From: Pomacea canaliculata
Taxonomy: Eukaryota > Mollusca > Gastropoda > Architaenioglossa > Ampullariidae
Reading direction: 5' to 3'
Length of the DNA stretch: 64,000 bases
Assembly (NCBI RefSeq): GCF_003073045.1
Contig: NC_037594.1
Span: 31,670,737 to 31,734,736, forward strand
Under the pieces are notes generated by a model. The model searched no databases, was not told where the DNA came from, and saw nothing but the letters and a program-made list of their open reading frames with translations. This document shows, in pieces, positions 30,632 through 61,028 of the stretch. Positions within the stretch are counted from its first letter, which is position 1. The number at the start of each line of letters is the position of its first letter. The translations under genes were made by a program, and so were the position numbers.

Positions 30632-32119
30632 TCACATACCAGAATTTCTCATAAGCACACAGTGAATGGAAGTCATAAAAAGCCTCTTATAGGCTTTTCG
30701 GTACTCAATATTTTTCCAGGTGTACACGACAAAATTCAGCAAAGAATTTGCGAAAACTGGCATTAAAATTGCAGCTACTATCCCTTCGTCATTATCCGAT
30801 CCTTTGTCAAAGAAAATCGAGTGAACTACAAACGGAAGCCAGCTGACAGAAAACAGAATGTTTATAGTCACAAACATAGCAATACATTGACTTTTCTTCA
30901 AGTTACTGTCGTTTTGAGAGGTGCAAGGATTAGAGACTGGACTAGTGTGAGTCTCTGGAGTGCCGTGTAAACATTGGTGTCCGTGGCCAGTCCTGTCCTT
31001 TTGTCTGTCTGTGTTGTCAACGAAAGGTCAACATCAGGTGACTGAACTACCCCGCTAACATGAAAATGTGAGGTAAGCACCACCTCACTATCTGGACCAT
31101 CTGGACCTGCCTGTCGTGTGCCGCCACAGTTGCCTTCATCTTGAACAGTTGGGACGATCGGAGGTTCAAGATGACCATTCTCTTGAGATTCCTCTGAAGA
31201 CATATGTTTACCAGACTTATACATCCTTCCATTAGGCCTAAGCACTTTGTCTTCAGTAGTAGTATGGTTATCTTGGCACAGAAAACCATTCTCTGTTGAC
31301 CTGATATTTGCTGTTACGTGTAAAGTTGTCTGTATTCGACGTTGATGATTCCGAACAAGGCAGGCGATTCTCATGTAGCACGCACCTGACAGGAGAAACT
31401 CTAAGACTAGCGACCCATTCAAAAATATTTTTTCGTACACGTTTACTCTTGTAAAAAACCTACAGCCCTCTGTTACAAAGCTGCTGTGCAAGACGATGAC
31501 AGTGCAACAAATAGCTACAGATAAACACCAGATTGTGATTATCAATGCCTTGGTGAACCTGTCACTTACAAACGTCCGTAGAAAAAGGGATACACGATGT
31601 AACACAGGCGGTCCAGCGCAATGGCCAGCATGGTGACATGGGATACAGTGATACAGATAGTGTAAACAAACACTCCTGACATACACAACACGTAGCTGCT
31701 GTCGATGATGGCTCTGGCCTCCGGTATGAAGAGACAGGCCATCCACACCAGCGCCGCTCCAACTAGAAGGTCGGCTACTGCCAGACTCAACACATACATA
31801 TTGGCCTGCCACTGGTCACTGTGACGTAGTTGCGGCGTCCGCAGGACGACCACGATGGTCAACAAGTTGACTGCAATGACCAGCAGACCTATCATTAATA
31901 ACACCGCTGCTATCAACGTCTTGTCCAGTATGGTTGCCATGGAGCTGGTAAGTAATGGCTCTGGATTCGTAACAGTTCTGTCAACACAGTGATCGGAATA
32001 TAACTCAATGTAAGTAGTTTGCACACAGTGTGCTTCTTCAGTTTTTCTGCAATGTCCACACGTGACCTGACAGTGCAACGGCGGTGAGATTCAGTGGAAA
32101 ACACTTTACCGTTATCCAA
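30632..32119 (-). pseudogene. second copy of the intronless GPCR, frameshifted
   Basis: Near-complete duplicate of the receptor at 1010-2509, with the same N-terminus (MDNGKVFSTE), TM1-TM3 almost unchanged and the same long third loop. One base is missing at about 31572 just after TM3 (at the ERFVSD turn), and another net frame change lies at about 30900 before TM6, so three frames are needed to read it through. Indels also shorten the third loop. Either a pseudogene or a copy with two sequencing errors; the independent in-loop indels favour real decay. Confidence 0.85.
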
Positions 32120-32365
32120 CGGTCGGTCCTGCTGCAGGTCCTTAAAATTACCTTCTCCGCGTGCAGCAGCTTAAATAGAAATTAAAGCAGATCGATATTT
32201 GCTAATGAGCCTGAAAATACTGCAAACACATTTTGCTCATTAGCATGCGCGAGAGCTTACTGAAACCATTGGAATCAGAGAGCTTCGCATCTCAGCAGAG
32301 ATAACTGGAGCAGGAGATAGAGACTACTTATTCAACAATTCACTGACTTCCTACTAACCGGCACA

Positions 32366-34450: not shown

Positions 34451-36545
34451 ACTCTTGTATATGGCTCTCACTTGCGGAGAGAGGTCTTCACAATATAAAT
34501 GTTAGTTCCTTTCAGTTTGTTGAGTTGTTTTAATATCAGAGTTTTATCCTTTAAGAATGTAGTTCTTGCAATGATTAGAGTGTCTGTGAACTCGTTCAAG
34601 GCAATCGACTTCTAAACTTGCAGTGGGTGCCATAACACTGTCAAGGGCTGAGAAAGATGAGCTAGAAAGATGGGAAATGTCTAGACACAGGCAAGCACTA
34701 AGATAAGTTAGGACTCAAAAACTTCAATACTCTACAGAAAGATCGCGGGAATACCTCGTTTGTTTTTAGAGGTAGTTTCTATTTGCATTGCTCACAAAAA
34801 TGTACTTTTACAATATTTTGAGCACTTTGTCGCATATCCAAGGCCTTTCATTAAGGGTCGGTTATGCACAGACGCAAACATAGTCACACCTCAGTTGGAG
34901 CTATCTTTTTAAGATGATGATGATGATGATGATGATGATCTAGTTTTGTAACGCCTAGTATCCGCATCACAAAGATGCGCTCAATGCGCGGTGATCCCAG
35001 CAGCCACCAAACTGCAGGTCAAATGAGGAACTTCAAATATTTCTAAACAAGTGAGACTTAAGATTTCTCTTAAAAGAGGCAAGACTATTAGACTCCTTGG
35101 TCGAGAGGGGAAGCGAGTTCCACAGAAGCGGGGCTACATTGGAGAAGGATCTGAAACCCATAGACTTCTTGTTAGTATTTCCTGACTGAACAGACGGTCG
35201 TCTAAGTCTGAAGTGGCTGCTGAACGAAGGTTCCGCTGAGGTTGGTGACGGCGAATGAGTTCTTGTAGCATCCATGACTTTGACCTCTAAACAACACTCT
35301 TCTACTGCACAGACAGCCTCACGCACCGGCTCACTGTCTGTACTGAATGAACGATAGAGTTCAGTGTCATCTGCAAACATCTTACGGTTCACACTATGCT
35401 TCTCAATGAGAGGACCAAGCTGAGATGTGTAAATAGAAAATAGAACAGGGCCCAAAACAGAGCCCTGCGGGACACCGCACAACAATGGAACTGTCACTGA
35501 AGAAGCCTGATTGACCATCACCCTTTGTGTACGGTCACTGAGGTAGGAATGGAACCCCTGCAAGGCGGAACCACCAATGCCCACCTTCATCTGGAGACGA
35601 GTCAGAAGAGTGGTGTGATCAATGACATCGAAGGCCGCACTCAGGTCAAGGAGGACCACAAGAGTCACTTTCCCTGCATCCGCACTGCACAGAAGATCGT
35701 TCATAAGACAGAAGGGCTGTCTCACAGCTGTGCTTGGGTCTGTACGCCGATTGGAATTTATCCAAAATGCTGTAGCGATCCAGGTGGAGTGTCAACTGCT
35801 GAGCAACTACACGCTCCACAAGTTTCGAAACAAAAGGCAAATGCGACACAGGTCTATAGTTTTTACACAAGCTAGGGTCCAAGTTGTGCTTCTTTAAGAC
35901 AGGCTTGATCACAGCTGTTTTAAATTGTCTAGGTACAGTGGCAGAGAAAATGCACCCCAATGTTCAGTCCACTTTTTCTCTTGGCTTCAAAGTCACCATT
36001 CATTATAATAATCGATGTGTTAAACAGAGAAATAAAGTACCATTGTGGCATTGTCATTATAGCAACCATTTGTGTACAGTATTTTAAACAGAAGTCGAAG
36101 AATTGTTTGGCCTTAAACTTTACATTTCTTTTGGAAATGTCAGATTTAAAAAGTCAGCTATTTATTAACAAGTTGTGACAGTCTTTCCAAGTCATTGTTC
36201 TGTCAGAGATTTTGCAGTCATCTTGATAATGGTGTTAATGGTGTGACAAAAGGCATGCAGACATTGTTACATGACCCTTTAAGTTCAGTTCAGTTTTTTT
36301 TTTTTTTTTTTGAACAGCAGAGTGATGTACATAATAATACTTAATATTACATACTCCAAACAGTTTCTTTGCAAAAAAGACATGAAAGAAGACAAAATTA
36401 TGCTTGCATTTTTTTATTTAGCTTTTATGACAAACATTTTTTTGTCTCGGGTTGATTGGATTTCAGCTATATAAAGCAAGTTTATTATCAAGTAATCAAA
36501 AAACAAAGCACGTCAATATAAATGTGAGTATTTATCTAAAATAAG
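34451..36545 (+). repeat. dispersed repeat, copy R3, interrupted by a LINE
   Basis: Same sequence as R1 (8614-9688): left part 34451-34915, right part 35949-36545. Between them sits a minus-strand LINE. The right part again has CTATATAAAG followed by the UBF-like exon at 36546, and then runs into the tandem array. Confidence 0.88.
34916..35948 (-). mobile_element. CR1/L2-type LINE, 5'-truncated
   Basis: The minus strand encodes RT motifs NYRPVSHLPFVSKLVER, FQSAYRPKHSCETALL, LLDLSAAFDVIDHTTLL, GVPQGSVLGPVLFSIYTS and KMFADDTELY (YADD box as FADD), then the C-terminal PLLWNSLPLSTKE tail. Two frames are needed (switch near 35700), and the palm-thumb segment after FADD has an internal deletion. 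The 3' end is an (ATC)n microsatellite at 34914-34940, as in L2-like elements. R1 provides the uninterrupted target (TTTTTAAGATGCACCC, about 9073-9088). Confidence 0.92.
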
Positions 36546-36729
36546 GCTGGGTCGACTCATGGACTAGCAATGACAGACTTACTCTGATCGAGTCAATTCG
36601 ATCACAATGCCCAGATAATGATTCTTTGTCATATAAAGTAAGAGAAAATACAATAAACTGGATAAAGTGACTGTCGGCAATCACAGTACAGAGCAATGCC
36701 GAAGAATGTGGAAAGAATTGGAAAAGCAG
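36546..36729 (+). pseudogene. UBF-like N-terminal exon, 1-bp deletion
   Basis: Same exon as at 9689: DSWTSNDRLTLIESIRSQ, NDSLSYKVREN. One G is missing in the TGGGATAAAG word (about 36660), which shifts the frame before DKVTV. It begins the UBF-like cluster. Confidence 0.78.
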
Positions 36730-37088
36730 GTATGGTGTGTGTTTTAGAGATTTATTTGCAGGGCTATGCATTGCTACTGTATAATGTATCACATAAAAAA
36801 AATCAGTTTTTAGAAGCTACTGCAATGATGAAAGCAGATATGGACTAAGTTCACATACATCATACAGTCTTATTTTGAATGCTGTCTGCTTCACACACAC
36901 AAAGGCTTACCAATGCAGTATTTTAGCAAATATGCATGTTTAATGTTCATATTCAAAGTGAGCGCATTTATGAAAATTAACCATGACACTAGCCAGCACG
37001 TGTGATTTACAGTTTACAGTTGATTAAAATAAAAGTATTACTGATGCTAGTGAAGGATGTTTTCGATGCGTAAATGATTTTGTTACAG

Positions 37089-37213
37089 CTGAGCACCTCT
37101 CAGTTATCTGACAAATTGCTTGCAAAGTATTCAAAGCTGGAGCCCTCAAAAAAAAAAAAAAAAAAAAAAAGAAGTGGAGTAGTAAAGCCATGGAAGCAAT
37201 ACCAGATTATGAG
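37089..37213 (+). pseudogene. HMG-box exon LSTSQ, unit 1 (out of frame)
   Basis: TTACAG acceptor, GTAAAG donor. Reads LSTSQLSDKLLAKYSKLEPS, then a lysine run encoded by poly(A), then intended WSSKAMEAIPDYE: helices 2 and 3 of an HMG box. Here the A tract has 23 As, which puts WSSKAM out of frame. Confidence 0.7.
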
Positions 37214-37592
37214 GTAAAGTCAATAAGAGCAGCTTGTATGTTGCTGTCAGTTTATTTTGTAGCTATAATGGGAATGAACTATCTTATAGAGTGTGGTGAT
37301 GCATATTTGTTTGCACACTCTGCATATGTGTGTGTGTGTTTTGTATGTTAATGGCATAGGCCATTGTACCTAACCCTGTCTCTTTTCATGTGTTTTAAGG
37401 GCCTTCTTATAAAGGTCTTGTTGGTTGCATTTTTTTTAAACAGTGACTGGGTAAAGCTCAGTGCAAAATGCTATTTCCCTAGATCTGACTAAATATTTTT
37501 GGTTCTCAAAAACAATTTATGAACCATCACAATTTGACTTCTGTAAAGTTTGGATCTATTGGATTCTTCATTTTTTTAAATTTTTTTTTAAG

Positions 37593-37664
37593 GTACGAAA
37601 GCATCGTACCCTTAGTGATATTTTGGAGGATGCTAAAGCAGCATCACCAATAAAAGTGAAAAGG
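37593..37664 (+). CDS. UBF-like linker exon VRKH, unit 1 (open)
   Basis: 24 codons, AAG acceptor and GTGAGT donor, both phase 0. VRKHRTLSDILEDAKAAS corresponds to UBF's VRKFRTLTELILDAQ segment that links the dimerisation region to HMG box 1. Confidence 0.72.
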
Positions 37665-38021
37665 GTGAGTATCAAGTTTTTTCCTGTCATTTTACTTCTA
37701 CCTTGCAAACCTTATAATGTTGTAGGCAGGTTGACTGCTTTGAATTAGGATATAGTATCGTAACAATAACAACAGTTAAATTTAGTACAGCGCATTTTCC
37801 TGTGCAGAGTTGAGCGCTAAGCTATACTTATGACTAGAAACAAGTAGCTTAACATACAACAAAGCAGACGCTTAAACACATAAAATTAGATTCCTATAGA
37901 TTGACTAACATTTAATTAGTTGTGGAGTCAATGAGAATAGAATGTTTAGATTTCTGAGGAAAATAATCCTTATGTCTTCTTGTTGCTTTTAGCTTTTTAA
38001 ATTACTTCTTAAACTGTCCAG

Positions 38022-38165
38022 CAGCCAGTAAAGCCATTGTCTCCAGAAAAAACATATATCAAAAAGCATTTTGAGAAAACGAAGAAAAAATATCCAACAA
38101 CGAAAAAAAAAGAGGTTGAGCAAAATATCTTGCACAGGTGGGAAAACCTCCCACGAAGGAAACGG
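38022..38165 (+). CDS. HMG-box exon QPVKP, unit 1 (open)
   Basis: 48 codons between a CCAG(CAG) acceptor and a GTAAAT donor. QPVKPLSPEKTYIKKHFEK ... KYPTTKKKEVEQNIL..WENLP has the HMG-box 1 layout of UBF (KPLTPYFRFF ... HPEMSN..LTKIL ... YKELP). The conserved Trp precedes ENLP. Start coordinate uncertain by one or two bases. Confidence 0.72.
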
Positions 38166-38558
38166 GTAAATTAAAAAATTTTCTGCTCTAAATTCTTTAA
38201 AAGTTTTCATTTAGTCCCTTGCTACTTATTAATATGACTTCAAATTCTCTTGAAAAATTCATCTTTGAAAAAGATGAATTCATGATGTGATCGCTGGAAA
38301 TACCAAATCTGTTTTTCTTTTTTTAGTTGAACATGAAATGTTGAAGTTCTGCTGTCTGTAGAAAATATGTTTTCTACCTTTGTGTGTATATATATATATG
38401 TGTATGCACTTTTTGTGTAATTATATTCTTTTGATTCATACTGAAGTTTCTATATTTTAAGAAATGTGTTGTAATTAAGCGAGTGGGCGCATGCTGGACG
38501 AGTGCATGGGAGTAAAGTGAACCATTGCGCGCAGGATCCACATTGCAGTCCATTACAG

Positions 38559-38660
38559 TCATATAAAGTAAGAGGCAAGAAAATAAACTGGGATAAAGTG
38601 ACTGTCGGCAATCACAGTACAGAGCAATGCCGAAGAATGTGGAAAGAATTGGAAAAGCAG
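38559..38660 (+). CDS. UBF-like N-terminal exon SYKVRG, unit 1/2 (open)
   Basis: 34 codons, ACAG acceptor, GTATGG donor, phase 0 at both ends. SYKVRGKKINWDKVTVGN then EQCRRMWKELEKQ, matching UBF FKTTESHMDWEKVAF..C..KWVEI. The upstream half of this exon (DSWTSNDRLTLIES), present at 9689 and 36546, is absent from the array copies; a new acceptor (CATTACAG) sits in its place. Confidence 0.75.
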
Positions 38661-39020
38661 GTATGGTGTGTGTTTTAGAGATTTATTTGCAGGGCTATGC
38701 ATTGCTACTGTATAATGTATCACATAAAAAAAATCAGTTTTTAGAAGCTACTGCAATGATGAAAGCAGATATGGACTAAGTTCACATACATCATACAGTC
38801 TTATTTTGAATGCTGTCTGCTTCACACACACAAAGGCTTACCAATGCAGTATTTTAGCAAATATGCATGGTTTAATGTTCATATTCAAAGTGAGCGCATT
38901 TATGAAAATTAACCATGACACTAGCCAGCACGTGTGATTTACAGTTTACAGTTGATTAAAATAAAAGTATTACTGATGCTAGTGAAGGATGTTTTCGATG
39001 CGTAAATGATTTTGTTACAG

Positions 39021-39146
39021 CTGAGCACCTCTCAGTTATCTGACAAATTGCTTGCAAAGTATTCAAAGCTGGAGCCCTCAAAAAAAAAAAAAAAAAAAAA
39101 AAAGAAGTGGAGTAGTAAAGCCATGGAAGCAATACCAGATTATGAG
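39021..39146 (+). CDS. HMG-box exon LSTSQ, unit 2 (open)
   Basis: 42 codons. The A tract encodes nine lysines in frame, so LEPSKKKK...WSSKAMEAIPDYE is continuous. HMG-box helices 2-3; compare UBF box 2 (KDSLGKQWSQLS...KWIHKALEQRKEYE). Confidence 0.72.
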
Positions 39147-39520
39147 GTAAAGTCAATAAGAGCAGCTTGTATGTTGCTGTCAGTTTATTTTGTAGCTATA
39201 ATGGGAATGAACTATCTTATAGAGTGTGGTGATGCATATTTGTTTGCACACTCTGCATATGTGTGTGTGTGTTTTGTATGTTAATGGCATAGGCCATTGT
39301 ACCTAACCCTGTCTCTTTTCATGTGTTTAAGGGCCTTCTTATAAAGGTCTTGTTGGTTGCATTTTTTTTAAACAGTGACTGGGTAAAGCTCAGTGCAAAA
39401 TGCTATTTCCTAGATCTGACTAAATATTTTTGGTTCTCAAAAACAATTTATGAACCATCACAATTTGACTTCTGTAAAGTTTGGATCTTTGGATTCTTCA
39501 TTTTTTAAATTTTTTTTAAG

Positions 39521-39593
39521 GTACGAAAGCATCGTACCCTTAGTGATATTTTGGAGGATGCTAAAGACAGCATCACCAATAAAAGTGAAAAGG
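39521..39593 (+). pseudogene. linker exon VRKH, unit 2 (+1 base)
   Basis: Identical to unit 1 except for one inserted A (AAAGACAGC for AAAGCAGC), giving 73 bases and a frame change. Confidence 0.72.
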
Positions 39594-39950
39594 GTGAGTA
39601 TCAAGTTTTTTCCTGTCATTTTACTTCTACCTTGCAAACCTTATAATGTTGTAGGCAGGTTGACTGCTTTGAATTAGGATATAGTATCGTAACAATAACA
39701 ACAGTTAAATTTAGTACAGCGCATTTTCCTGTGCAGAGTTGAGCGCTAAGCTATACTTATGACTAGAAACAAGTAGCTTAACATACAACAAAGCAGACGC
39801 TTAAACACATAAAATTAGATTCCTATAGATTGACTAACATTTAATTAGTTGTGGAGTCAATGAGAATAGAATGTTTAGATTTCTGAGGAAAATAATCCTT
39901 ATGTCTTCTTGTTGCTTTTAGCTTTTTAAATTACTTCTTAAACTGTCCAG

Positions 39951-40094
39951 CAGCCAGTAAAGCCATTACATCCCGAACAAATGTACATTAAAAAACATCT
40001 GATGAAGATGAAAAGCAAACAGCCCCTAACAAACAGAAAAGAGATCTACAAAAAGATCTTGGAGAGGTGGGAAAACCTCCCACCAAGGAAACGG
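39951..40094 (+). CDS. HMG-box exon QPVKP, unit 2 (open, strongly diverged)
   Basis: 48 open codons: QPVKPLHPEQMYIKKHLMK ... KEIYKKILERWENLPP. First 16 and last ~26 bases equal unit 1, but about 37 of 144 positions differ in between, most of them changing the residue, while adjoining introns are practically unchanged. Confidence 0.74.
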
Positions 40095-40486
40095 GTAAAT
40101 TAAAAATTTTCTGCTCTAAATTCTTTAAAAGTTTTCATTTAGTCCCTTGCTACTTATTAATATGACTTCAAATTCTCTTGAAAAATTCATCTTTGAAAAA
40201 GATGAATTCATGATGTGATCGCTGGAAATACCAAATCTGTTTTTCTTTTTTTAGTTGAACATGAAATGTTGAAGTTCTGCTGTCTGTAGAAAATATGTTT
40301 TCTACCTTTGTGTGTATATATATATATGTGTATGCACTTTTTGTGTAATTATATTCTTTTGATTCATACTGAAGTTTCTATATTTTAAGAAATGTGTTGT
40401 AATTAAGCGAGTGGGCGCATGCTGGACGAGTGCATGGGAGTAAAGTGAACCATTGCGCGCAGGATCCACATTGCAGTCCATTACAG

Positions 40487-40588
40487 TCATATAAAGTAAG
40501 AGGCAAGAAAATAAACTGGGATAAAGTGACTGTCGGCAATCACAGTACAGAGCAATGCCGAAGAATGTGGAAAGAATTGGAAAAGCAG
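40487..40588 (+). CDS. UBF-like N-terminal exon SYKVRG, unit 2/3 (open)
   Basis: 102 bases, identical in translation to 38559-38660; same acceptor and donor. Confidence 0.74.
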
Positions 40589-40947
40589 GTATGGTGTGTG
40601 TTTTAGAGATTTATTTGCAGGGCTATGCATTGCTACTGTATAATGTATCACATAAAAAAAATCAGTTTTTAGAAGCTACTGCAATGATGAAAGCAGATAT
40701 AGACTAAGTTCACATACATCATACAGTCTTATTTTGAATGCTGTCTGCTTCACACACACAAAGGCTTACCAATGCAGTATTTTAGCAAATATGCATGGTT
40801 AATGTTCATATTCAAAGTGAGCGCATTTATGAAAATTAACCATGACACTAGCCAGCACGTGTGATTTACAGTTTACAGTTGATTAAAATAAAAGTATTAC
40901 TGATGCTAGTGAAGGATGTTTTCGATGCGTAAATGATTTTGTTACAG

Positions 40948-41073
40948 CTGAGCACCTCTCAGTTATCTGACAAATTGCTTGCAAAGTATTCAAAGCTGGA
41001 GCCCTCAAAAAAAAAAAAAAAAAAAAAAAAGAAGTGGAGTAGTAAAGCCATGGAAGCAATACCAGATTATGAG
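40948..41073 (+). CDS. HMG-box exon LSTSQ, unit 3 (open)
   Basis: Same as unit 2 (nine-lysine tract in frame), 126 bases with phase-0 ends. Confidence 0.72.
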
Positions 41074-41454
41074 GTAAAGTCAATAAGAGCAGCTTGTATG
41101 TTGCTGTCAGTTTATTTGTAGCTATAATGGGAATGAACTATCTTATAGAGTGTGGTGATGCATATTTGTTTGCACACTCTGCATATGTGTGTGTGTGTTT
41201 TGTATGTTAATGGCATAGGCCATTGTACCTAACCCTGTCTCTTTTCATGTGTTTTAAGGGCCTTCTTATAAAGGTGTTGTGGGTTGCATTTTTTTTTTAA
41301 CAGTGACTGGGTAAAGCTCAGTGCAAAATGCTATTTCCCTAGATCTGACTAAATATTTTTAATTGGTTCTCAAAAACAATTATGAACCATCACAATTTGA
41401 CTTCTGTAAAGTTTGGATCTATTGGATTCTTCATTTTTTTTAATTTTTTTTAAG

Positions 41455-41527
41455 GTACGAAAGCATCGTACCCTTAAGTGACATTTGGAGGATGCTAAAA
41501 CAGCATCACCAATAAAAAGTGAAAAGG
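41455..41527 (+). pseudogene. linker exon VRKH, unit 3 (stop)
   Basis: An extra A after CCCTTA gives VRKHRTLK followed by TGA; other small changes (AAAACAGC, AAAAAGTG) show further decay. 73 bases. Confidence 0.72.
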
Positions 41528-41884
41528 GTGAGAATTAAGTTTTTTCCTGTCATTTTACTTCTACCTTGCAAACCTTATAATGTTGTAGGCAGGTTGACTG
41601 CTTTGAATTAGGATATAGTATCGTAACAATAACAACAGTTAAATTTAGTACAGCGCATTTTCCTGTGCAGAGTTGAGCGCTAAGCTATACTTATGACTAG
41701 AAACAAGTAGCTTAACATACAACAAAGCAGACGCTTAAACACATAAAATTAGATTCCTATAGATTGACTAACATTTAATTAGTTGTGGAGTCAATGAGAA
41801 TAGAATGTTTAGATTTCTGAGGAAAATAATCCTTATGTCTTCTTGTTGCTTTTAGCTTTTTAAATTACTTCTTAAACTGTCCAG

Positions 41885-42026
41885 CAGCCAGTAAAGCCAT
41901 TTAAATCCGGAAAAATGTACATAAAAAACATTTTAAGAAGAAAAAAAGAAAATATCCGACAACAAAGAAAAAAGAGATGAGAAACAGATCATGGAGAGGT
42001 GGGAAAACCTCCCACCAAGGAAACGG
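41885..42026 (+). pseudogene. HMG-box exon QPVKP, unit 3 (2-bp loss)
   Basis: 142 bases. QPVKPFKSGKMYIKN.., then frameshift to a TGA. Without the loss it would resemble unit 1 (KKYPTTKKKE) at one end and unit 2 (ERWENLPP) at the other, so the core is a mosaic. Confidence 0.7.
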
Positions 42027-42420
42027 GTAAATTAAAAAATTTCTGCTCTAAATTCTTTAAAAGTTTTCATTTAGTCCCTTGCTACTTATTAATATGACTT
42101 CAAATTCTCTTGAAAAATTCATCTTTGAAAAAGATGAATTCATGATGTGATCGCTGGAAATACCAAATCTGTTTTTCTTTTTTTAGTTGAACATGAAATG
42201 TTGAAGTTCTGCTGTCTGTAGAAAATATGTTTTCTACCTTTGTGTGTATATATATATATATGTGTATGCACTTTTTGTGTAATTATATTCTTTTGATTCA
42301 TACTGAAGTTTCTATATTTTAAGAAATGTGTTGTAATTAAGAGAGTGGGCGCATGCTGGACGAGTGCATGGGAGTAAAGTGAACCATTGCGCGCAGGATC
42401 CACATTGCAGTCCATTACAG

Positions 42421-42522
42421 TCATATAAAGTAAGAGGCAAGAAAATAAACTGGGATAAAGTGACTGTCAGCAATCACAGTGCAGAGCAATGCCGAAGAAT
42501 GTGGCAAGAATTGGAAAAGCAG
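42421..42522 (+). CDS. UBF-like N-terminal exon SYKVRG, unit 3/4 (open)
   Basis: 34 codons with three replacements relative to the other array copies (VSNHSAEQC, MWQELEKQ). The intron after it is the TTTTTCTCTG variant and the LSTSQ exon of a fourth unit is missing. Confidence 0.72.
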
Positions 42523-43279
42523 GTATGGTGTGTGTTTTAGAGATTTTTCTCTGTTTTTCCAGTGTAAAGGTTACAGAGATTGCTACTATCTTATAGAGCG
42601 TGGTGATGCACATTTGTTTGCACACTCTGCATATGTGTGTGTGTGTTTTGTATGTTAATGGCATAGGCCATTGTACCTAACCCTGTCTCTTTTCATGTGT
42701 TTTAAGGGCCTTCTTATAAAGGTGTTGTGGGTTGCTCAGTGCAAGATGCTATTTCCCTAGATCTGACTAAATATTTTTAATTGGATAATACAAATAACTA
42801 TTAGTCTAGAATCATCAAACGTGTAATTAAAAGTAGCACACTGATTTTGTGATTGCACTACTTGGAATATGTACATATTGTCTGAATTTTTGTGTGTGTA
42901 CTAACCTACTGTTAGTGTTGATTTTGTTGTCTGAACATATGTCTGCATGTTTCACATTTTTTACTGTTACTGTAACCCACAAGTTCGTCACTTGTCAGGC
43001 ACTGAAAGTTGTTGCTCATGCTTGTAAACTGCTGAAGTCTGTGTACATGCATGTGCAATCATGAACGCACATGTATGCTGAGTAGGTTGTCTTTGGTTTT
43101 TGCAAAAAAGAGTATTTGTGATAATAGAGGCAGCTCACTGAGAAGGACTATAAAGTTGGATACTTTCCTGTCAAAAAAAAAATTTTTAATTGGTTCTCAA
43201 AAACAATTATGAACCATCACAATTTGACTTCTGTAAAGTTTGGATCTATTGGATTCTTCATTTTTTTTTCTTTTTTAAG

Positions 43280-43354
43280 GTTCGTAAGCATAGAACACTT
43301 CCAGAACTTTTATCTGATGCTCAGACTGTTTCACCTAAAGTAAAAAGGAAAAGA
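43280..43354 (+). CDS. UBF-like linker exon VRKH, divergent copy (open)
   Basis: 25 codons: VRKHRTLPELLSDAQTVS then KVKRKR, closer to UBF (VRKFRTLTELILDAQ) than the array copies are. The ~80 bases upstream and ~55 downstream are almost identical to the array introns, whereas the exon itself is heavily substituted. Confidence 0.75.
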
Positions 43355-43435
43355 GTGAGTATCAACTTTTTTCCTGTCATTTTACTTCTACCTTGCAAAC
43401 CTTATAATGTTGTTGTTGTTTTGTTGTTGTAAAGC

Positions 43436-44250
43436 ACTGAGTCATTAGGAATGACCCTCTATAAATAATCCTTATAACTACTTTCGGCGCTGCGCTTAGT
43501 GACAACATGGTCTGTGTCTATGTTCTGTAATAGTAACCAGTGGCAGACACTTTACTGAGAAGGATTAATAAAGATGTTTTGTATTCGTGTTGTATTTGTA
43601 AGCCTTTCTGTCATTCACCGACTGTAGGAACGCTTTAAGACAACGGACAGAACTAAAAGCTTTGGCCATGAAGACGACAGCCTACCAGCTACGTCATTCG
43701 AGACAAGCAAAATCTTAAATTCCTTTGACGTCACGCCATGATGCAATATTGTGAATTGTGTCACATCAATCACGTGAGAGTGTACCTAACGTGTTCGGCC
43801 ACATTTAAGTGTGTAAGGAACCATTCCAGTAAGTTAAATCGCCAGCCATTACAACCAAGCTGAGGTTTTACGGAGAGATAGTGAAGAAAAACAGTAAGTA
43901 GAGGTGAATATGTGTGGATGTACGAGTGAATGAAACCACTCTAAGACATTTTAAGATGTAGATTACACAGTGTCAATAACAGTAAATAATTTCTGAGAAA
44001 TAAATTTGATTTGATTTAAAAGTTTGATATATTTGAAAGTGTTTTATATGTTGATAATTTCTTCTTAATATTTAATGGATGATAGGTGAATATGTAGTCA
44101 CAACCATCGTGTCGGAAATTTTATGTTTGATACTGTTTGCAAATCACTTTATCTGATACCTGATTACAAGCGCGTTTAAAGCTGTATTTTAATTTTAAAA
44201 CTTTATTTGCTCACCGTTTTATGTTTTGTTCATTTAATCTGAATTTCAAG
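43436..44250. other. no gene; possible gene start region
   Basis: AT-rich. Contains AATAAAG-like words (43567) and a start codon context at 44251, but nothing decisive. Confidence 0.35.
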
Positions 44251-44307
44251 ATGGCAACGACATCAGGTACTCAAGAGCCTCAGGAGGCCGGAATAACTCC
44301 TGAAAAG
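44251..44307 (+). CDS. candidate first exon (weak)
   Basis: ATG in the context TTCAAGATGGC opens MATTSGTQEPQEAGITPEK, then a poor donor (AAG/GTCCGG) or read-through to a stop at about 44350. Polar, acidic residues as in the N-terminal tail expected before a UBF-like module, but no homology can be claimed. Confidence 0.25.
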
Positions 44308-44803
44308 GTCCGGCCAACGGTTAAGACATTTAATGTTTATGAAATTAATTAGCGATGAGATGTAGATGACACAAAATAAAAGAACGCTACTCCCTCAGCG
44401 TCAACCTCCTCCTACGGTTAACAGACGGGCTGGCGGGATGACTGATTGGACCAGCAGGTTAATCCAATGAATTACTTCACGCAGTTCGTGAAGTTAAGGT
44501 GATTAAAGCCGTATCGGCGAAGATGTTATATTCCGATTGAATTAATTACTACACCACACTCGGAATACACATGTTAATACTCCACTGGAAAAAACGTTGG
44601 ATATCCGTTGAAGGCAGTTAACCCACACACAGTTCACTCCCCACGGAGCTCTGTACTCTCCAACTGCTTGGTCTCGACTGTCTCGAGAAACGTTAGAACC
44701 ACCCAGTTAACTCATCCTTTTTCTCCTCCTGACCAATCAGGCCCCCCTAGCGACCAGGTAACTAGGACGACCTCCTAACAGTCTTTCTTGGAGACCTCTC
44801 CAG

Positions 44804-45010
44804 AGTCGCCCTTCGATGGACTCCAGACGGCCGAAGAAAACGAGGCCGCCCAAAGGAAACTTGGAGGAGAACAACTGAAAGGGAGATGAAATTAAAGGGC
44901 TGGACATGGTGTCACCTAGAGCGGGTTTCAGCCGATCGACATCGGTGGCGGACTCTGGTCGAGGCCTTATGTGCAACCTGATGCACGAAGAGGACAAGAA
45001 GAAGTCTAAG
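44804..45010 (+). mobile_element. RTE/Proto2-like LINE 3' coding tail
   Basis: Reads VALRWTPDGRRKRGRPKETW, then RRTTEREMKLKGWTW and RWRTLVEALCAT, the well-known C-terminal extension (RWxPxGxRxRGRPKxTWRR...DRxxWR) of many invertebrate LINEs. The open frame extends to a TGA near 44980. RT not present. Confidence 0.8.
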
Positions 45011-45110
45011 ATAGGCTCCAGTAATTTTTTTGTTAGGGGATGTGGGGTTAATTTTCAAGCATAACAAGCCATCGGAAAATTTCATTTAATCTGTACCTCT
45101 TTATTTCCAG

Positions 45111-45186
45111 TCTGTGAGAGCCCAAGCTATGACACACTTTATGACATTTGCTTTTGGGAGTGACTTCAAAATAACACGTGTATCAG
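45111..45186 (+). CDS. UBF-cluster exon of unknown content (form A)
   Basis: TTTCCAG acceptor, GTGAGA donor, 76 bases, open: SVRAQAMTHFMTFAFGSDFK. The flanking introns match those around 49773-49858, but the exon does not. Not recognised as an HMG segment. Confidence 0.45.
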
Positions 45187-45941
45187 GTGAGAAATTTAAT
45201 GCTTATGATTTGCAGTGATCTTCGCTTTGGTACTTTAAATCAGAAATAAATTATTATGACAGAATTCTGAAGCCACAAGTTTTAATCTTACAGTCATTAA
45301 TGTTCAAGATTTATTAGTCATTGCTCTCTTTATATCTGTATATATATATATATAAAATTTTTGCTTTGAATTTCTAGAATTTTGCTTATGTTGGTATGAA
45401 ATGAAGTGATTAAGCCAGTGTTAGGTTATTAGTTTATTCCTTGTCGCTCCATTGAGGAGCATTATAGGGTCACAAAGCCAAAGTTGGTGATGTCAACATC
45501 TTTAGCAAAATCTGCTAAACGTGGCAAAACCAAAGAATTTCATTTATATTATACTCAGAAATGGTTATTATATAACCACGGACGTATATAGTTCTTGATA
45601 TAACGAACGGCCCTCAGCGTGCGACAGAAAGCATCTCCACACAGTTTTCAGTAAGTTTTTCACAAGGGAGGTAACGCCAACACACTTCCTAAGTAACTGG
45701 GTTAAGAAAGCGTGGTTAAGTGTGCACTGATGGTCCAAGAACAGGAGATGGAATCTACCTTTTATACCGCGAAACTTCAAAATTGAAGGTGTGGCAGTAG
45801 CCAACTTGCGACGAAGCTAGTCGCATCGCAGGGTGCACGGAGAAAAAGTCCGAGTTAGAAATCTTCCCTGTCTTATCGCTGCAACCCACTGTGGTCCTCT
45901 CCCCTACCATTATGTGCATCCTCCATTGATCCTCTTTACAG
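45187..45941. other. UBF-cluster intron copy; no gene
   Basis: Intron-like sequence shared with 49859-50640 (TTCGCTTTGGTACTTTAA, TCGCTCC..TTGAGGAG, AACGAACGGCCC), with a TA run at 45340-45353. Confidence 0.6.
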
Positions 45942-46042
45942 TCATATAAAGTAAGAGGCAAGAAAATAAACTGGGATAAAGTGACTGTCAGCAATCACAG
46001 TGCAGAGCAATGCTAAGAATGTGGCAAGAATTGGAAAAGCAG
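45942..46042 (+). pseudogene. UBF-like N-terminal exon SYKVRG, 1-bp deletion
   Basis: As 42421-42522 (VSNHSAEQC) but one base is lost at TGCTAAGAATG, creating a TAA stop. Preceded by CTTTACAG, so its left flank differs from array copies. Confidence 0.72.
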
Positions 46043-46176
46043 GTATGGTGCGTGTTTTAGAGATTTTTTCTGTTTTTCCAGTGTAAAGGTTACAGAGATT
46101 ACTACTATCTTATAGAGTGTGGTGATGCATATGTGTTCGCACACTCTGCATATGTGTGTGTGAGTTTTGTGATCAG

Positions 46177-46317
46177 CCAGCAAGGCCACTGACACCACAA
46201 AGACGTGTTATAAAGGAACAGAGACAAAAAGTGAAAGCAAGAAATCCTGGAATAAAAGCGCCAGAGATTAACAGACTGTTGTCTGAGAAGAAGCAAAGTC
46301 TGTCACCCAGGAAACGG
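46177..46317 (+). CDS. HMG-box exon, divergent copy PARPLTP (open)
   Basis: 47 open codons: PARPLTPQRRVIKEQRQK, ARNPGIKAPEINRLLSEK, SLSPRKR, a clearer HMG box (helices 1-2) than the array copies, although the helix-2 Trp is Lys here (LLSEKKQSLS versus LLSQKWQSLS at 55.5 kb). The downstream intron equals the array intron; upstream the long intron has been lost, and sequence normally following the SYKVRG exon abuts it. Confidence 0.72.
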
Positions 46318-46664
46318 GTAAATTAAAAAATTTTCTGCTCTAAATTCTTTAAAAGTTTTCATTTAGTCTCTTGCTACTTATTAATATGACTTCAAATTCT
46401 CTTGAAAAATTCATCTTTGAAAAAGATGAATTCATTATGTGATCGCTGGAAATACCAAATCTGTTTTTCTTTTTTAGTTGAACATGAAATGTTGAAGTTC
46501 TGCTGTCTGTAGAAAATATGTTTTCTACCTTTGTGTGTATATATATATGTGTATGCACTTTTTGTGTAATTATATTCTTTTGATTCATACTGAAGTTTCT
46601 ATATTTTAAGGAATGTGTTGTAATTAAGCGAGTGGGCGCATGCTGGACGAGTGCATGGGAGTAA
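46318..46664 (+). repeat. UBF-array intron copy
   Basis: Same intron as after each QPVKP exon (TTCATCTTTGAAAAAGATGAA hairpin included), ending at GCATGGGAGTAA where the Gypsy fragment begins. Confidence 0.85.
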
Positions 46665-48310
46665 CTGTGGTGTCGAGCAGCTTGCCACGCTGGTAGCCCA
46701 AAAGTTAAGAGAGTGGAACAACACCACACCAGCGCAACCAGCCCCACCCCCACCAGCTTAGGCAACACCAACGACCTTTTTCAGAGAGGACGCCACCCGG
46801 TGTCCGCCCAGCGGGACTGCCACCTCGCATGCGTCAGCAGGGGAGAGGACTGTGCTACAGGTGTGGAATTCAAGGACATCTGGCGAGAGAGTGTCGGGCG
46901 AGTACTCCACGACATTTAAAAGGCAACCAGTCACTGTTAAGGTGCGGACAGTGACTGCACCAGCGACACCTATCTTGAGGACAAGGGAGCTCCAGACTGA
47001 TCATGCAGAACGAGACTCGTCCGAATATTTAGATGCTGTGTTGGTACCCTCCTTCGAATGTGATGTTACTGTTTGTGGTTTTGGTACACGCGTCTTGCTA
47101 GACAGTGGGTCACAGATCACGACCGTGGCAGAGCAGTTCTATCGAGATAATCTCTCTCACATTCCCCTATTGAATGTAGAGGAGATTTTGGGCTTTAAAC
47201 AGTCAGTGAGGGGAGCGGGTGACCAGGTGGTACCTTACACAGGTGCCATCAAGGTTAGCTGTTGTCTGCCAGCGACCGTAGTAGGGAGCAGTGATACTGT
47301 ACACGTTGTAGCACTAGTGAGTAAGGACACAGAGTATTCCTCTAAAGTACCTATCATTATCGGGACAAACCTTTTTAAGCAGTTAGCGGGGAAGGGAAAC
47401 CCTGAGGCCATTTTTCAGCAGATCCCTTCCGAAGTCGCGCTGGCAGTACGGCTTAAAGGGAGTGATGTCATTCTTCCAGCACATTCCCAGGTCATGGTAC
47501 AAGGAACCTCCAGGGGAACAGTACCACGGTCAGGTGTTGCAGTCTTAGTCCAAGAGCCCGTTTCACAACCCCTTCCAGAAGGTTTAGGTGTAATAACCAC
47601 CAAGGTAGTGGTAGCAGATTTGTCCAATATCGACGTCCTGTTATGTAATATCTGACAGGGACGTGAATCTAAAAGGGGGGGGGGGGGTGTCTGTGGTTGC
47701 AGATATTATGCGTATTGAGGCCGAATATGATGTCTACCAATTGTTACAGGAATTACATGCCGATGTGGTAAGTAATCATGCGAGCCCTGAGGTTCAAGGT
47801 CAAACTCGGACAAGAAATAGTAGTGGGTATCATTTCAGTTTGGACAGAACGTACCCGACGATTGGAGGGAACAATTTGAACAAAAACTTCAGGAATATAA
47901 AGATCTCTTTGTGCAGGACGAGTTTGACATTGGCCGGGCAAACACGGGCACAGAGTTTAATATGGAAGTCCAACCAGGGCCTAAAATTCGAGAGCGCGCT
48001 AGGCCGCTATCACCCCAAGACTTTCAGGACTGCAAACAGCATATCCAAGGGTTGCTAGATGCCGAGATTATCAGGCCCTCGACATCCTCCTTTGCTAGTC
48101 CTCTAGTCTTGGTCAGGAAGAAATCAGGGGCCCTGCGTATGTGTGTCGACTATCGCAAGCTGAACAGCCGCACTGTGCAGGACAGTTACAGCATTCCGAA
48201 GGTAGAAGACCTTTTCCTTACCCTAAGTCAGGCAAGATATTTTTCCAGCATGGACCTATGTAAAGCCTATTACCAGATTCCAATTGGACATAAAGCCGGA
48301 AGTACGTCAT
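46665..48310 (+). mobile_element. Ty3/Gypsy LTR retrotransposon fragment (gag 3' end to RT)
   Basis: A gag zinc knuckle (CYRCGIQGHLARECR, from 46853) is in one frame. Overlapping it one base behind is the pol frame with a retropepsin site LLDSGSQIT (about 47097) and, after a G9-G11 homopolymer frame break near 47675, RT residues CVDYRKLNSR and SSMDLCKAYYQIP. It stops inside RT at about 48305; no RNase H, integrase or LTR is visible. Dead fragment inserted in a UBF-array intron. Confidence 0.9.
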
Positions 48311-49858: not shown

Positions 49859-50639
49859 GTGAGAAATTTAATGATTATGATTTGCAGTGATCTTCGCTTT
49901 GGTACTTTAATTCAGAAATAAATTATGACAGAATTCTGAAGCCACAAGTTTTTAATCTTACAGTCATTAATGTTCAAGATTTATTAGTCATTGCTCTCTT
50001 TATTTCTGTATATATATATAAAATTTTTGCTTTGAATTTCTAGAATTTTGCTTCTGTTGGTATGAAATGAAGTGATGTGTCAAAATGTAAGCCAGTGTTA
50101 GGTTATTAGTTTATTCCTGGTCGCTCCCTTGAGGAGTATAGGGTCACAAAGCCAAAGTTGGTGATATCAACATCTTTAGCGAAATCTGCTTTTTGTTGAT
50201 CTTTTGATGTTTTGGGTTTTTTTTAACCTCTAGTAGTGCATTTTGTAATAGATAATATAAAAATTACAATATTTGCTTTGGTGACTAAGTCCTTAAAATT
50301 GTGATGTTATCTAGGAGGTTTTGAAATGTAAAAAATCTGTAATGTGGCCTTCGATCAGGGCAAACGATCAGACGGAAGATTTCTAACTCAGACTTTTTTC
50401 CTCCGTGCACTCTGCGATGCGACTATCTTCGTCGCAAGTTGGCTACCGCCACATACAATTCAATTCTATAAAACTTGGCAAAACCAAAGAATTTCATTTA
50501 TATTATACTCAGAAATGGTTATTATATAACCACGGACATATATAGTTCGTGATATAACGAACGGCCCCCAGCGTGCGACAGTTAACAGCAAGTTTTTCAC
50601 AAGGGAAGTAATGCCAACACATTTCCTGAAGTAACTGGG

Positions 50640-51640
50640 TTAAGATGGTGTTCATTCCTGCTAAGTTTTTATGTTATTCTAGTACTCGATATTTTGCGTT
50701 AAGGGCTCTAATTTCTTTGTTTCTGGCTTTTGCTTTGCTTTTGCTGTGTTGGATTGTTATGTCTTTGAGTCTTTCTTTTAGTCGGTCCCACCAGTCCAGG
50801 AGAAGGAGGCCTTTTAGTTTGGTTAGTGAGGCAAAGTGTAGCAGGATGTTGATTTTATTGATGTAGTGTCTTGCAGGAGTGATGTATTCAATTTCCAAAA
50901 GCTCTTACCTACGTTGGTTGGTGTCGTGTGGGAAAGTTCTATTTGGACATAGTCGTGGTCGGAAAAGGGGCATACTATGTGTTCGGCCGTTAGTACGTGT
51001 TGGGCCAGGCTGTGGGAGATGAAGATTTTGTCAAGTCTACAGCCTACCTGGGAGCTATGCCATGTAACGCTCGTCGTGTTGGGGTGCAGGAGTCTGTATG
51101 CGTCTACAAGTCTATGGTCCCTTACCGCTGCCGATAGTTCGGCGTGACCGATCTTTCCTGTGTCTGGGTTGCCCCCTATTTTGTCTAATGTGGAGTTAGC
51201 GATGCAGTTGAAATCTCCAGCGAGGATTTGCGGGTGAGATGTGGCTAAAAGTGGGTATAAATCTTTGAAGAAAGTTTTACGCTCGCACAGGTCGTTGGGG
51301 GCGTATATGTTGGTGATTTGCATCGTGCATGCGTTGATCGTTACTGTGGCTGTTATGTACCTACCGAGGAAATCTGTCTGAAAGTGGTGTATTTCTGCAT
51401 TTAGTTTGTTGTTTATGTAAAGGGCTGCCCCCTTGCCCCTTGGGGTGGTGAGCGACCATATTATTTTGCCGTCGAGTTTCTGGGCGATCTCATTTCCTAT
51501 CTGCAGGGAATCTGTGTGTGTTTCCTGAAGTAAGAGGATGTCTATGTTGTGTTTCTGTATGTGTTGGTGAAGTGCGTTGATTTTGTGGTCGTGTCAGAAC
51601 CTCTGCAGTTGAGGTTTGATATGCGCATGGTCGCCGTTTG
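50640..51640 (-). mobile_element. Tx1/L1-type LINE ORF2, 5' part
   Basis: From about 51637 the minus strand reads MRISNLNCRG, then (frame change) NIDILLLQETHTDSLQ, ITNIYAPND, ILAGDFNCIAN, and PFSDHDYVQIEL: the apurinic endonuclease domain with its QETH, GDFN and SDH catalytic motifs. After a second frame change the linker WWDRLKERLKDITIQ follows. No RT; the element stops at about 50640. Confidence 0.85.
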
Positions 51641-54613: not shown

Positions 54614-54694
54614 GATTCGGATCCTGGAATAACAATCCCAGATATTACCAGACTGTTGTCTCAGAAGTGGCAAAGTCTGTCACCCAGGAAATGG
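54614..54694 (+). pseudogene. HMG-box exon, 5'-truncated (PGITIPDITRLL)
   Basis: The usual acceptor (AAACTGTCCAG) is kept, but only the second half of the exon remains (PGITIPDITRLLSQKW, SLSPRKW), 81 bases and open. Confidence 0.65.
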
Positions 54695-55427: not shown

Positions 55428-55559
55428 ATGCTGACTCCATATATACGTTACATAAGGGAACACACAGAAAATGTTAAAGCAAAGAATCCTGGAATAACAC
55501 TCCCAGATATTACCAGACTGTTGTCTCAGAAGTGGCAAAGTCTGTCACCCAGGAAATGG
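55428..55559 (+). CDS. HMG-box exon (helices 1-2), best-conserved copy
   Basis: TTTACAG acceptor and GTAAAT donor. Reads NMLTPYIRYIREHTENVKAK, NPGITLPDITRLLSQKWQS, SLSPRKW. LTPYIRYI matches UBF box 1 (LTPYFRFF) and the helix-2 Trp is intact. The intron after it is the array intron. With the exon at 56252 it makes one complete HMG box. Confidence 0.75.
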
Positions 55560-56251: not shown

Positions 56252-56316
56252 GAGAAGTATCACTTGCATTACAGTAAGGATCGGGAAGACTTTGTGAAAG
56301 CAAATGAAGAGTTCTT
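56252..56316 (+). CDS. HMG-box exon (helix 3)
   Basis: TTTTAG acceptor, GTGAGT donor. EKYHLHYSKDREDFVKANEE is the third HMG helix, corresponding to UBF's KYIQDFQREKQEFERNLARF. It is the last UBF-like exon before the convergent Tudor locus; later exons are absent. Confidence 0.72.
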
Positions 56317-56603
56317 GTGAGTATACTCTGCAGAATTTTAAGTTAAGTTTTTTTTTAATCCTAACTGATCAAATTGGTCAGTTTAAAAAAGATAAGACCA
56401 TATCAAATTATTGTTTGCTCTTTGAAATACCTTTCTACTTCGTGCTAAAAAAACAATGGTAGAGAAAATATATCTTTAAGTGAAGGAAAGTGATTGAAAT
56501 TACAAATTCAAAACTGAACCCATTAGCCAATGACTGATCTGATTATTTTTTTTATCTACTAAAATAAAATAAGTATAACTCTTACTTATCAGTCACAAGT
56601 TCC
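56317..56603. other. intergenic between convergent loci
   Basis: AT-rich. The final Tudor-locus frame (FEELVTD, about 56620-56590 on the minus strand) ends here. No clear poly(A) signal pair can be assigned. Confidence 0.5.
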
Positions 56604-57935: not shown

Positions 57936-58330
57936 AGTTTTCTTTTCTGTCAGTGTTTAGAACTTCTCTTTCTGTTCTTCTGTCCACTTATCAACACCAT
58001 GCAGTCTGCACTCATAAGCAAATGCTGACTTGGTCATGAAGTCAGAGGGAAGCTTTACAATACTTGTCTTCTCTGTCTGTCTTCTAGTGCCTAAGTCCAC
58101 AAGAAGTACCTCCATAACAGATCAGGGTGTAGGCCTTTCAACTGGTTTGTCGGTGAATATTCTGAATTTCCATAGTCTACAAACTGCACCAAAGCCTTGC
58201 CACCACTGATCAACAGCACACGGGACCTCTACCACCAGCCATCAGCTGAGAAACAAGCACAGCAAATAGTGCCTTTGGATATGGCTCCCTTCAAAGGTAT
58301 GCCGCTGCCAACACACATAGACTGCACAGT
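57936..58330 (-). pseudogene. multi-Tudor locus copy 2, Tudor remnants at the duplication edge
   Basis: SRVLLISGGKALVQFVDYGN (within the duplicated block) then, past its edge at 58128, MEVLLVDLGTRRQTEKTS and WTEEQKEKF, a different Tudor. TAG in the WW-stop-RSRV word (shared with copy 1) and TAA after QKEKF interrupt it. Confidence 0.75.
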
Positions 58331-58340
58331 GGCAGATGCT

Positions 58341-59093
58341 CTAGCTGAGAAGATGCACTAAGAAGTTGGATGTAGAAGTTTCCTCCTCTATATGTGTAAT
58401 GAATGCATCAGATGATCCTGTAGGTGGAGAAGGTTCTTTCAAGACTTGCATGACAGATGCCTCTTTAAACACCCTTTGCTTGTACAGGGACTCGCCAACA
58501 TCAACATTCCCTATCCTAACTTTAACATTCTTTCCACCAGTGAAAGCTAGTGTAAGTTCTTTTTCTGTGACCATGTTCTCAAAAGTTGCTATAGGTGCAG
58601 CATCAGAAGAGCTGGGCTCAAATCCCTCCAGACAACATTCTAGTGCAAAAGTAGGTTGAGTAATGAGGTCTGCAGAGATTGGCTTTACATTCTCCCTTTT
58701 CACAAGTTCAGAGTTCCCATAGTCAACAAAATGCACATTCACTTTCGTTCCATGCACAGACACAACCACAGCACGATACCACAGACCATCTTTGTCATAG
58801 AGGGTGCAACAAGGCTGTCCTGGTGACAAGGCTGCCAAAGCTGGCTTGGAGCCAAAACCATAGTTCTGACCTAAAGTTTCTTTCATAGAGTCTAGCTGCT
58901 TATCTGTGCCAACAAACTGCACCCAAAATCGAGAAATGGACTCAACAAAACTGACATATGCTTGAATGGTTTGTCCAGCTGCAATATTCATGCAGGCATA
59001 TCCTGTTCCCTCTCTGGACATCAAAGGTTTGTCAGTGATTTTCCCTAATGTTGCTTTCAGTTCATCTGTAACTGACTGGTTATTCTTGAACAA
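58341..59093 (-). CDS. multi-Tudor locus copy 2, intact 250-residue Tudor block
   Basis: Longest open block of the locus: SRFWVQFVGTDKQLDSM, CCTLYDKDGLWYRAVVVSVH and VNVHFVDYGNSELVKREN, followed by the second half of the extended Tudor (CCLEGFEPSSSD, TFENMVTEKELTLAFTGG). Cage residues (Y-D/L-W-Y-R/F-V-D-Y-G-N) are all present, as in domains binding symmetrically dimethylated arginine of Piwi proteins. Upstream sequence (GHEGETKEGFRLIVHL) continues in frame to about 59130, then a frame change. Confidence 0.82.
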   Translation of the reverse strand: MFKNNQSVTDELKATLGKITDKPLMSREGTGYACMNIAAGQTIQAYVSFVESISRFWVQFVGTDKQLDSMKETLGQNYGFGSKPALAALSPGQPCCTLYDKDGLWYRAVVVSVHGTKVNVHFVDYGNSELVKRENVKPISADLITQPTFALECCLEGFEPSSSDAAPIATFENMVTEKELTLAFTGGKNVKVRIGNVDVGESLYKQRVFKEASVMQVLKEPSPPTGSSDAFITHIEEETSTSNFLVHLLS

Positions 59094-59400
59094 ATGAACA
59101 ATAAGCCTGAAACCTTCCTTTGTTTCACCCTCATGTCCAGTTCTTCCTCAGTGATCTTTACAAATTTTTCCAAGAGACTATCTGCATTTCAGCCTTCATG
59201 GATATCCAGAGAGCAATGAATGGCTTGGGCAGGCAGTCAACAATGCAGGATCTAACCTGAACACTGTAGTTCGAGGAGATGTCTGGATATTGCCATAATC
59301 CACAAACACATCACATCATGTGCTGTGAATGACTGCACTCGAGCTCTGTACCTCAGCAAACTGGGCAAACATGGCATACCTACCTGAAAGCACAGGCAAC
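59094..59400 (-). pseudogene. multi-Tudor locus copy 2, frameshifted Tudor core
   Basis: YRARVQSFTAHDV is followed by a missing base (ACATCACATC; copy 1 has ACATCCACATC near 16668) that breaks the VFVDYGNIQT motif. Further linker residues (LEKFVKITEEELDM) follow. Confidence 0.75.
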
Positions 59401-60840: not shown

Positions 60841-61028
60841 GAAACACCTACACACACAGAAAGAAAACATCATGTTAAAAGCAAATTTGAAATGCACATC
60901 TTTGCAACTTTCTATCTTTCTTTTTTTCTGTTTGCACAATCACCAACTACAGATCCATAATTTCCCCCAAAGTTCACATCAATTTCAAAGGTTTTATGTA
61001 CAAGCGTAGATACTTGAAATTTCCAAAA

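Follow-up and report, generated by a model that had tools for sequence, protein, structure and literature searches.

We analyzed a 64,000-nucleotide stretch of the Pomacea canaliculata genome (C5:31670737-31734736, hereafter the window), which carries an array of three rearranged units, each of about 1.93 kb, of a gene resembling the nucleolar transcription factor UBF. Each unit holds its exons in the order C-D-A-B, together with pieces of the introns of an intact UBF-like gene on C4; the B-C spacer also contains a dispersed repeat. The intact gene has the exon order N-C-A-B-E-F-D, followed by further exons (these letters are labels assigned in this analysis), and encodes P0002, annotated as nucleolar transcription factor 1-B-like isoform X2 of P. 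canaliculata. One protein annotated at the array itself, P0001, is the uncharacterized LOC112564878 isoform X4 of the same species. The units and their parts were placed in the window as follows.

36628..38558, + strand: unit 1, with C exon, a piece of the F-D intron, D exon, C-A intron, A exon, A-B intron, B exon, the start of the B-E intron, and the dispersed repeat; one base is missing from its C exon, and its D exon goes out of register within a run of A
38559..40486, + strand: unit 2, with an exon A carrying one extra base and otherwise identical to A1
40487..42420, + strand: unit 3, with a TGA in exon A and two single-base gaps in exon B, so that its exon B is not open
37593..37664, + strand: exon A1 (VRKHRTL...), which three alignments put at 22, 25, or 29 of 72 positions from the intact gene, and whose neighbouring introns are 3-4% apart
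start 39521, + strand: exon A2, unit 2
start 41455, + strand: exon A3, unit 3
38022..38165, + strand: exon B1, encoding helices 1 and 2 of HMG box 1 as judged from P0001 and P0002
39951..40094, + strand: exon B2, whose protein is identical to the middle of P0001
41885..42026, + strand: exon B3, 142 bases long, with a frame that is broken in this assembly
37665..38021, + strand: A-B intron, 0/357 between units 1 and 2, 2/357 to unit 3, and 11/357 to the intact gene
38166..38557, + strand: B-C intron, its first ~220 bases UBF-like intron, the dispersed repeat from ~38389

Exons A, B, and E of P0002 encode the linker and HMG box 1, and its residues 143-225 matched box 1 of human UBF (PDB 1k99) with an E of 1.5e-11. 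P0001 is composed of the end of D, an exon A, B2 of the window, and exons E' and F', located at C5:31746011 and 31746341. For exon A it has the sequence of A1, and the model may have drawn it from unit 1 or, with the extra base of A2 removed, from unit 2. The HMG_box score of P0001 was 30.8 bits (cut-off, 25.4), and exon B1 alone scored 19.3, below the cut-off. The predicted P0001 structure had helices at residues 40-55, 61-73, and 77-104, with residues 31-100 confident and a whole-model pTM of 0.47. The C4 gene has an N-terminal region, linker, and box 1 in UBF order, the array exons matched its exons, although in the order C-D-A-B, and by these sequence matches the array is placed in the UBF-like HMG-box gene family. 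Its likeness to UBF/UBTF (nucleolar transcription factor 1) lies in the exon content and sequence of P0002 and in box 1; unlike UBF/UBTF, the array repeats only exons C, D, A, and B, with their order changed. Vertebrate UBF has an acidic C-terminal tail, and none was visible by eye in P0002 (isoform X2 only). The existence of the annotated isoform is the sole evidence of expression of the array. Two of the 3 B exons were open, and exon A was intact in unit 1 only; some of the frame breaks may be long-read errors, because the assembly was built from PacBio reads (smartdenovo) and corrected with short reads (Pilon; Illumina libraries with a 350-base insert) (PMC6129957).

A preliminary description of this DNA had reported about 37 differences over the 144 positions of exon B between units 1 and 2, most of them altering the residue, in 2 open exons set within near-identical introns. 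Our recount gave 36/144 (38022-38165 vs 39951-40094), with replacements in 17 of the 26 differing codons and silent differences only in the other 9, and both frames were confirmed open. Between the same units, the A-B intron had no substitution and no indel over 357 positions, and the B-C intron had 0/391 substitutions and one indel. The exon ends had been described as unchanged, which held for the first bases (17 are identical) and failed for the last 26, where one difference was found (38155). The six exon positions given earlier were correct within three bases, although the one at 54614 marks only the 3' part of an exon. The observation of divergent cores in near-identical introns is confirmed, and it reaches further than described.

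Units 1 and 2 differed at 34/100 positions in the exon B core and at 3/1,721 in the rest of the unit (Fisher P 2e-42). The C exon (4/102 between these units) is omitted from the latter count, as the start of unit 1 is the head of a different copy. The core of unit 3 differed from that of unit 1 at 26/98 and from that of unit 2 at 22/98 positions, with two single-base gaps, and its introns differed from those of the other units at 2/357 and 2/391. Unit 3 had been described as a mosaic of units 1 and 2, for which a runs test offered no support (29 informative sites, 13 runs, P 0.27). In the intron after exon B, the first 157-224 aligned bases were within 2.3% among six copies in the window. We rejected an exon excess as a general trait of local duplications, the one control duplication in the window (15479-18383 vs 58118-61028) being ordinary, with 20/1,110 differences in open frames and 35/1,781 in the rest (P 0.78). 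This duplication spans 2.9 kb, with 1.9% substitutions and Tudor-like reading frames, named by eye. A receptor-like gene (G protein-coupled receptor, by eye) was also found duplicated in the window, at 1486-2669 and 31095-32282; its copies are 85% identical, the second being split across two frames.

We estimated divergence per silent (dS) and per replacement (dN) site in the cores, each dS estimate drawing on only about 20-23 silent sites. For B1-B2, dS was 0.83 and dN 0.31 (dN/dS 0.37), and for B1-B3, dS was 0.77 and dN 0.21 (dN/dS 0.27), whereas B2-B3 gave a dS of 0.14 and a dN of 0.26, with a ratio of 1.88 that is a point estimate only. The core codons of B4 and B6, two further copies listed below, gave a dS of 0.20 and a dN of 0.24 (ratio 1.25, likewise a point estimate only), and dN was not above dS for B1, B2, or B3 when each was compared with B4 and with B6. 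Silent differences were found in 9 of 31 residue-conserved codons between B1 and B2, against 0 of 748 intron sites (P 7e-14). The B1-B2 differences fell 10, 8, and 18 on the three codon positions, a third-position excess (18/36) with P 0.028; in the other nine exon B pairs the test was not significant at 0.05, B1-B3 coming nearest at 0.0503. Intron divergence was zero to 0.6%, against a silent divergence of 0.77-0.83 in B1-B2 and B1-B3. In exon A, VRKHRTL was kept between the intact gene and A1 with 4 of its 7 codons silently changed. Because silent sites have diverged too, and dN is below dS in B1-B2 and B1-B3, the exons seem to be of greater age than the introns and to be under some constraint. 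A difference in age between cores and introns is supported.

The nearest pair of units also depended on the part compared, being units 1 and 2 by flank and units 2 and 3 by core (22/98 vs 26/98 and 34/100). Codons with silent differences only numbered one in B2-B3, against nine in B1-B2 and seven in B1-B3. Among two-state sites at 37278-38360, 15 of 17 outside the core united units 1 and 2, and 6 of 34 within the core did so (P 1.6e-6, or 0.0014 without exon A); another 16 of the 34 core sites united units 2 and 3, and 12 united units 1 and 3, with 5 further sites differing in all three. Over the whole unit, 17 of 23 non-core sites united units 1 and 2 (P 3e-5, or 0.006 without exon A). The values without exon A are given because of an alignment shift in A3, where the shifted stretch is scored as 8 substitutions and really comprises about two substitutions and three indels. 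This disagreement between core and flank speaks for exchange without proving it.

Further exons of the family were identified in the window.

43280..43354, + strand: exon A4, 24/72 from A1 and from A3 and 14/75 from the intact gene, in a flank with derived variants common to unit 3
46174..46317, + strand: exon B4, 26/144 from the intact gene, followed by an intron 2/224 from that of unit 1
54614..54694, + strand: B5, the 3' part of a B exon of intact type, 2/66
55431..55559, + strand: B6, a B exon of intact type, 7/126
56252..56317, + strand: exon E (third helix of box 1), of intact type, 5/66

In distance from the intact gene, the exon B copies of the window ranged from far (B1, 59/144; B2, 61/144) through intermediate (B4) to close (B5 and B6). 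The A-B intron of B5 was 24/303 from the intact gene, above its exon, which is the ordinary order. Three types of exon A (intact, A4, and A1) lie within similar introns: the intron before A4 has derived variants in common with unit 3, and yet A3 and A4 differ by a third. A1 differed from A* at 3/72 positions, and no exon A substitution separated units 1 and 2. The introns of the C4 gene differed from those of unit 1 at 11/302, 11/357, and 6/140 positions, with 6/53 in a short tail (34/852 in sum). Exons A and B were 31-42% divergent between the C4 gene and the array, and the other exons 6-11%. Exons C, D, E', and F' together differed at 31/396 positions, about twice the intron value (P 0.006), a milder exon excess in which exon C was compared as substitution counts only. 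We rejected the idea that the introns are kept as a known RNA: 36000-46700 gave no Rfam match at the gathering score, and exons D, E, and F have silent sites that are young too. A fourth array copy was found at C5:31744001-31754000 (L019, local 1122-1193 and 1548-1660), in which a shortened B exon passes straight into an A4-type exon. The sequence immediately preceding the first exon of the C4 gene recurs at window positions 45517-45763 (~94% identical) and 50454-50642 (~86% identical), and at the former site the beginning of that exon is included as well.

We searched the whole genome (440,159,624 bases, 24 contigs; match counts are lower bounds for repeats and large families) for sources of the cores. 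Protein searches with B1 and with B2 found no outside donor for either, with at least 8 matches for B1 and at least 7 for B2, all in the UBF-like family apart from one weak match each, C1:24650918 (E 0.14, with stops inside) and C3:36247592 (E 7.1). The search with P0001 gave at least 9 matches, on C4 and C5, in the UBF-like family, and the A-B intron was found at no fewer than 7 places, all of that family. The dispersed repeat ending the B-C spacer (window 38389-38557, about 170 bases) was present at more than 30 other places, with 40 of 106 candidates scored. Three protein searches for relatives returned P. canaliculata proteins and distant ones, and a 46-base intron pattern had no match in viral contigs. 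Searches of the open-licence literature for UBF paralogue conversion, gastropod nucleolar transcription factor 1, LOC112564878, and Pomacea canaliculata HMG-box proteins listed no paper describing the array, judged by title or the start of the abstract. The preliminary description had proposed replacement of the core by conversion from diverged paralogues within homogenised introns; the differing age of core and intron agrees with this, but for the import itself no donor of B1 or B2 was found in the assembly.

In exons A and B, which supply the linker and the first two helices of HMG box 1, divergence is far above that of their introns at silent sites too, and most other exons are near-identical between units. 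The explanation we favor, and to which we give about an even chance of being right, is that concerted evolution homogenises the introns while the box-1 exons persist as old protected islands. Copies of the UBF-like cluster would undergo concerted evolution by unequal exchange and gene conversion, and exchange tracts that replaced a box-1 exon would be removed by selection because the exon variants do different jobs or serve as alternatives in one gene. A core diverged by a quarter would also block exchange through itself, leaving islands with sharp edges. The slightly diverged introns that the C4 gene has in common with the C5 array would be explained if the C4 gene were a recent copy of one C5 member. 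Because the assembly holds no donor for B1 or B2, old cores in homogenised introns fit better than import from paralogues.

Several points weigh against this explanation. The site-pattern test has no root, a shared ancestor cannot be demonstrated from three units alone, and most of the flank sites are changes in unit 3. Five silent states are common to B2 and B3 against B1, and of the three that the intact gene polarises, two are changes in B1 and one is a derived state common to B2 and B3. Divergence between the C4 gene and the array is fairly uniform outside A and B (introns 34/852, other exons 31/396), which looks like one recent duplication and not a patchwork of conversions. The island edges are very sharp, with silent sites of exon A only 3 and 6 bases inside left unhomogenised. 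Unit 3, whose exons are broken, carries the extra exon A changes (about two substitutions and three indels), and protein selection does not explain these. Core age and unit age were, moreover, judged within one snail genome, that of P. canaliculata.

Exon-confined replacement, the main rival, is a possible but doubtful alternative, in which the units would be young duplicates where diverged sequence repeatedly took the place of exons A and B, by short-tract exchange or from an RNA or cDNA template, the latter confining change to exons. The roughly single age, relative to the C4 gene, of everything but A and B agrees with it, as do edges close to splice sites and an exon A that is far from the C4 gene and ordinary between A1 and A*. 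There is also a precedent in ASSET of snake toxin genes, where highly similar introns accompany radically different exon segments (PMC2474615, PMC2711939). However, swaps after units 1 and 2 split, with their introns at 0/748, would be so recent that donors should survive, and the searches with B1 and B2 brought up none. Ordinary homologous recombination, moreover, does not extend to tracts of 70-100 bases where the sequences differ by a third. It is unlikely, though worth stating, that an exon-confined and perhaps RNA- or cDNA-templated process replaces or shields these short exons whole, with the introns left untouched, and here keeps up a panel of HMG-box-1 alternatives within a UBF-like gene. 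If so, the annotated B2 isoform would be one choice from that panel; use of A1 would pass over B1, a mended A2 would be the alternative, and the one-base difference cannot discriminate between them.

We consider an assembly fault improbable. Polishing could have made the flanks of distinct repeat copies alike, or errors could have been put into exons, in a PacBio smartdenovo assembly corrected with Pilon and 350-base-insert Illumina libraries (PMC6129957); single-base indels are present in the units, and the annotated proteins are not independent support because they derive from the same assembly. Nevertheless, units 1 and 2 show no substitution in the introns that directly adjoin the unique cores, to which short read pairs can be mapped; B1 and B2 are also open, HMG-like, and biased toward silent change, and the one control duplication in the window is ordinary. 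Exon-targeted hypermutation in place, which we rate as quite improbable, would account for hits at both silent and replacement sites and for the extra changes and indels in exon A of unit 3, and it keeps some weight because the silent states common to B2 and B3 are mostly not demonstrably derived. Against it stand the absence of any exon A substitution between units 1 and 2, the coding constraint visible in exon B, and, weakly because unrooted, the differing nearest pairs of core and flank. Strong diversifying selection on box-1 point mutations after recent duplication, the driver put forward in the preliminary description, is very improbable: dN is above dS in B2-B3 and B4-B6 (point estimates) and the residue changes fall in the DNA-binding box, but the silent sites already contradict it for B1 vs B2 and B3, their per-site divergence exceeding that of replacement sites, at 0.77-0.83 against introns at zero to 0.6% (0/748 between units 1 and 2), as does the third-position excess in B1-B2.

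The array signature is most likely, by analogy, the one known from primate L/M opsins, here far more extreme. In gibbon L/M opsins, synonymous and nonsynonymous exon divergence both exceed intron divergence, which was read as intron conversion selected against in exons (PMC3213168), and a review describes peaks of L/M opsin divergence around selected exon sites (PMC3924837). Both systems consist of tandem copies with exons, silent sites included, more divergent than introns, and the disagreement of exon and intron trees in the opsins (PMC3213168, PMC3924837) may have a counterpart in the differing, though unrooted, nearest pairs of core and flank. Unlike the opsins, the array shows a contrast of about a third vs zero, known here from one species, and its islands are sharp-edged stretches of 70-100 bases, with more than two variants, in a UBF-like factor of a snail. 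In the ASSET of snake three-finger toxin genes, the mechanism was left unexplained in the sources cited (PMC2474615, PMC2711939), and the array is alike in its similar introns with strongly differing exon segments. Unlike ASSET segments, those of the array are not unrelated but recognisable homologues with silent divergence (B1-B2 protein identity 65%, and 42-44% to the intact box 1), and the matches of B1 and B2 outside the UBF-like family are two weak ones only. Islands of divergence also persist under gene conversion in the GOT1 paralogues of Tigriopus californicus, which are enzyme genes compared across populations, and the abstract does not describe the islands as single short exons (PMC3728101).

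The array is an unusually clean case of exons seemingly far older than their own introns, in the DNA-binding box of a ribosomal-RNA factor family. It also carries a caution, in that divergent exons in near-identical repeats need not imply positive selection, and silent sites decide. With the array one can test how exchange tracts come to an end at short diverged exons, which is open for venom genes as well, and whether distinct DNA targets account for the retention of variants of the UBF-like box 1.

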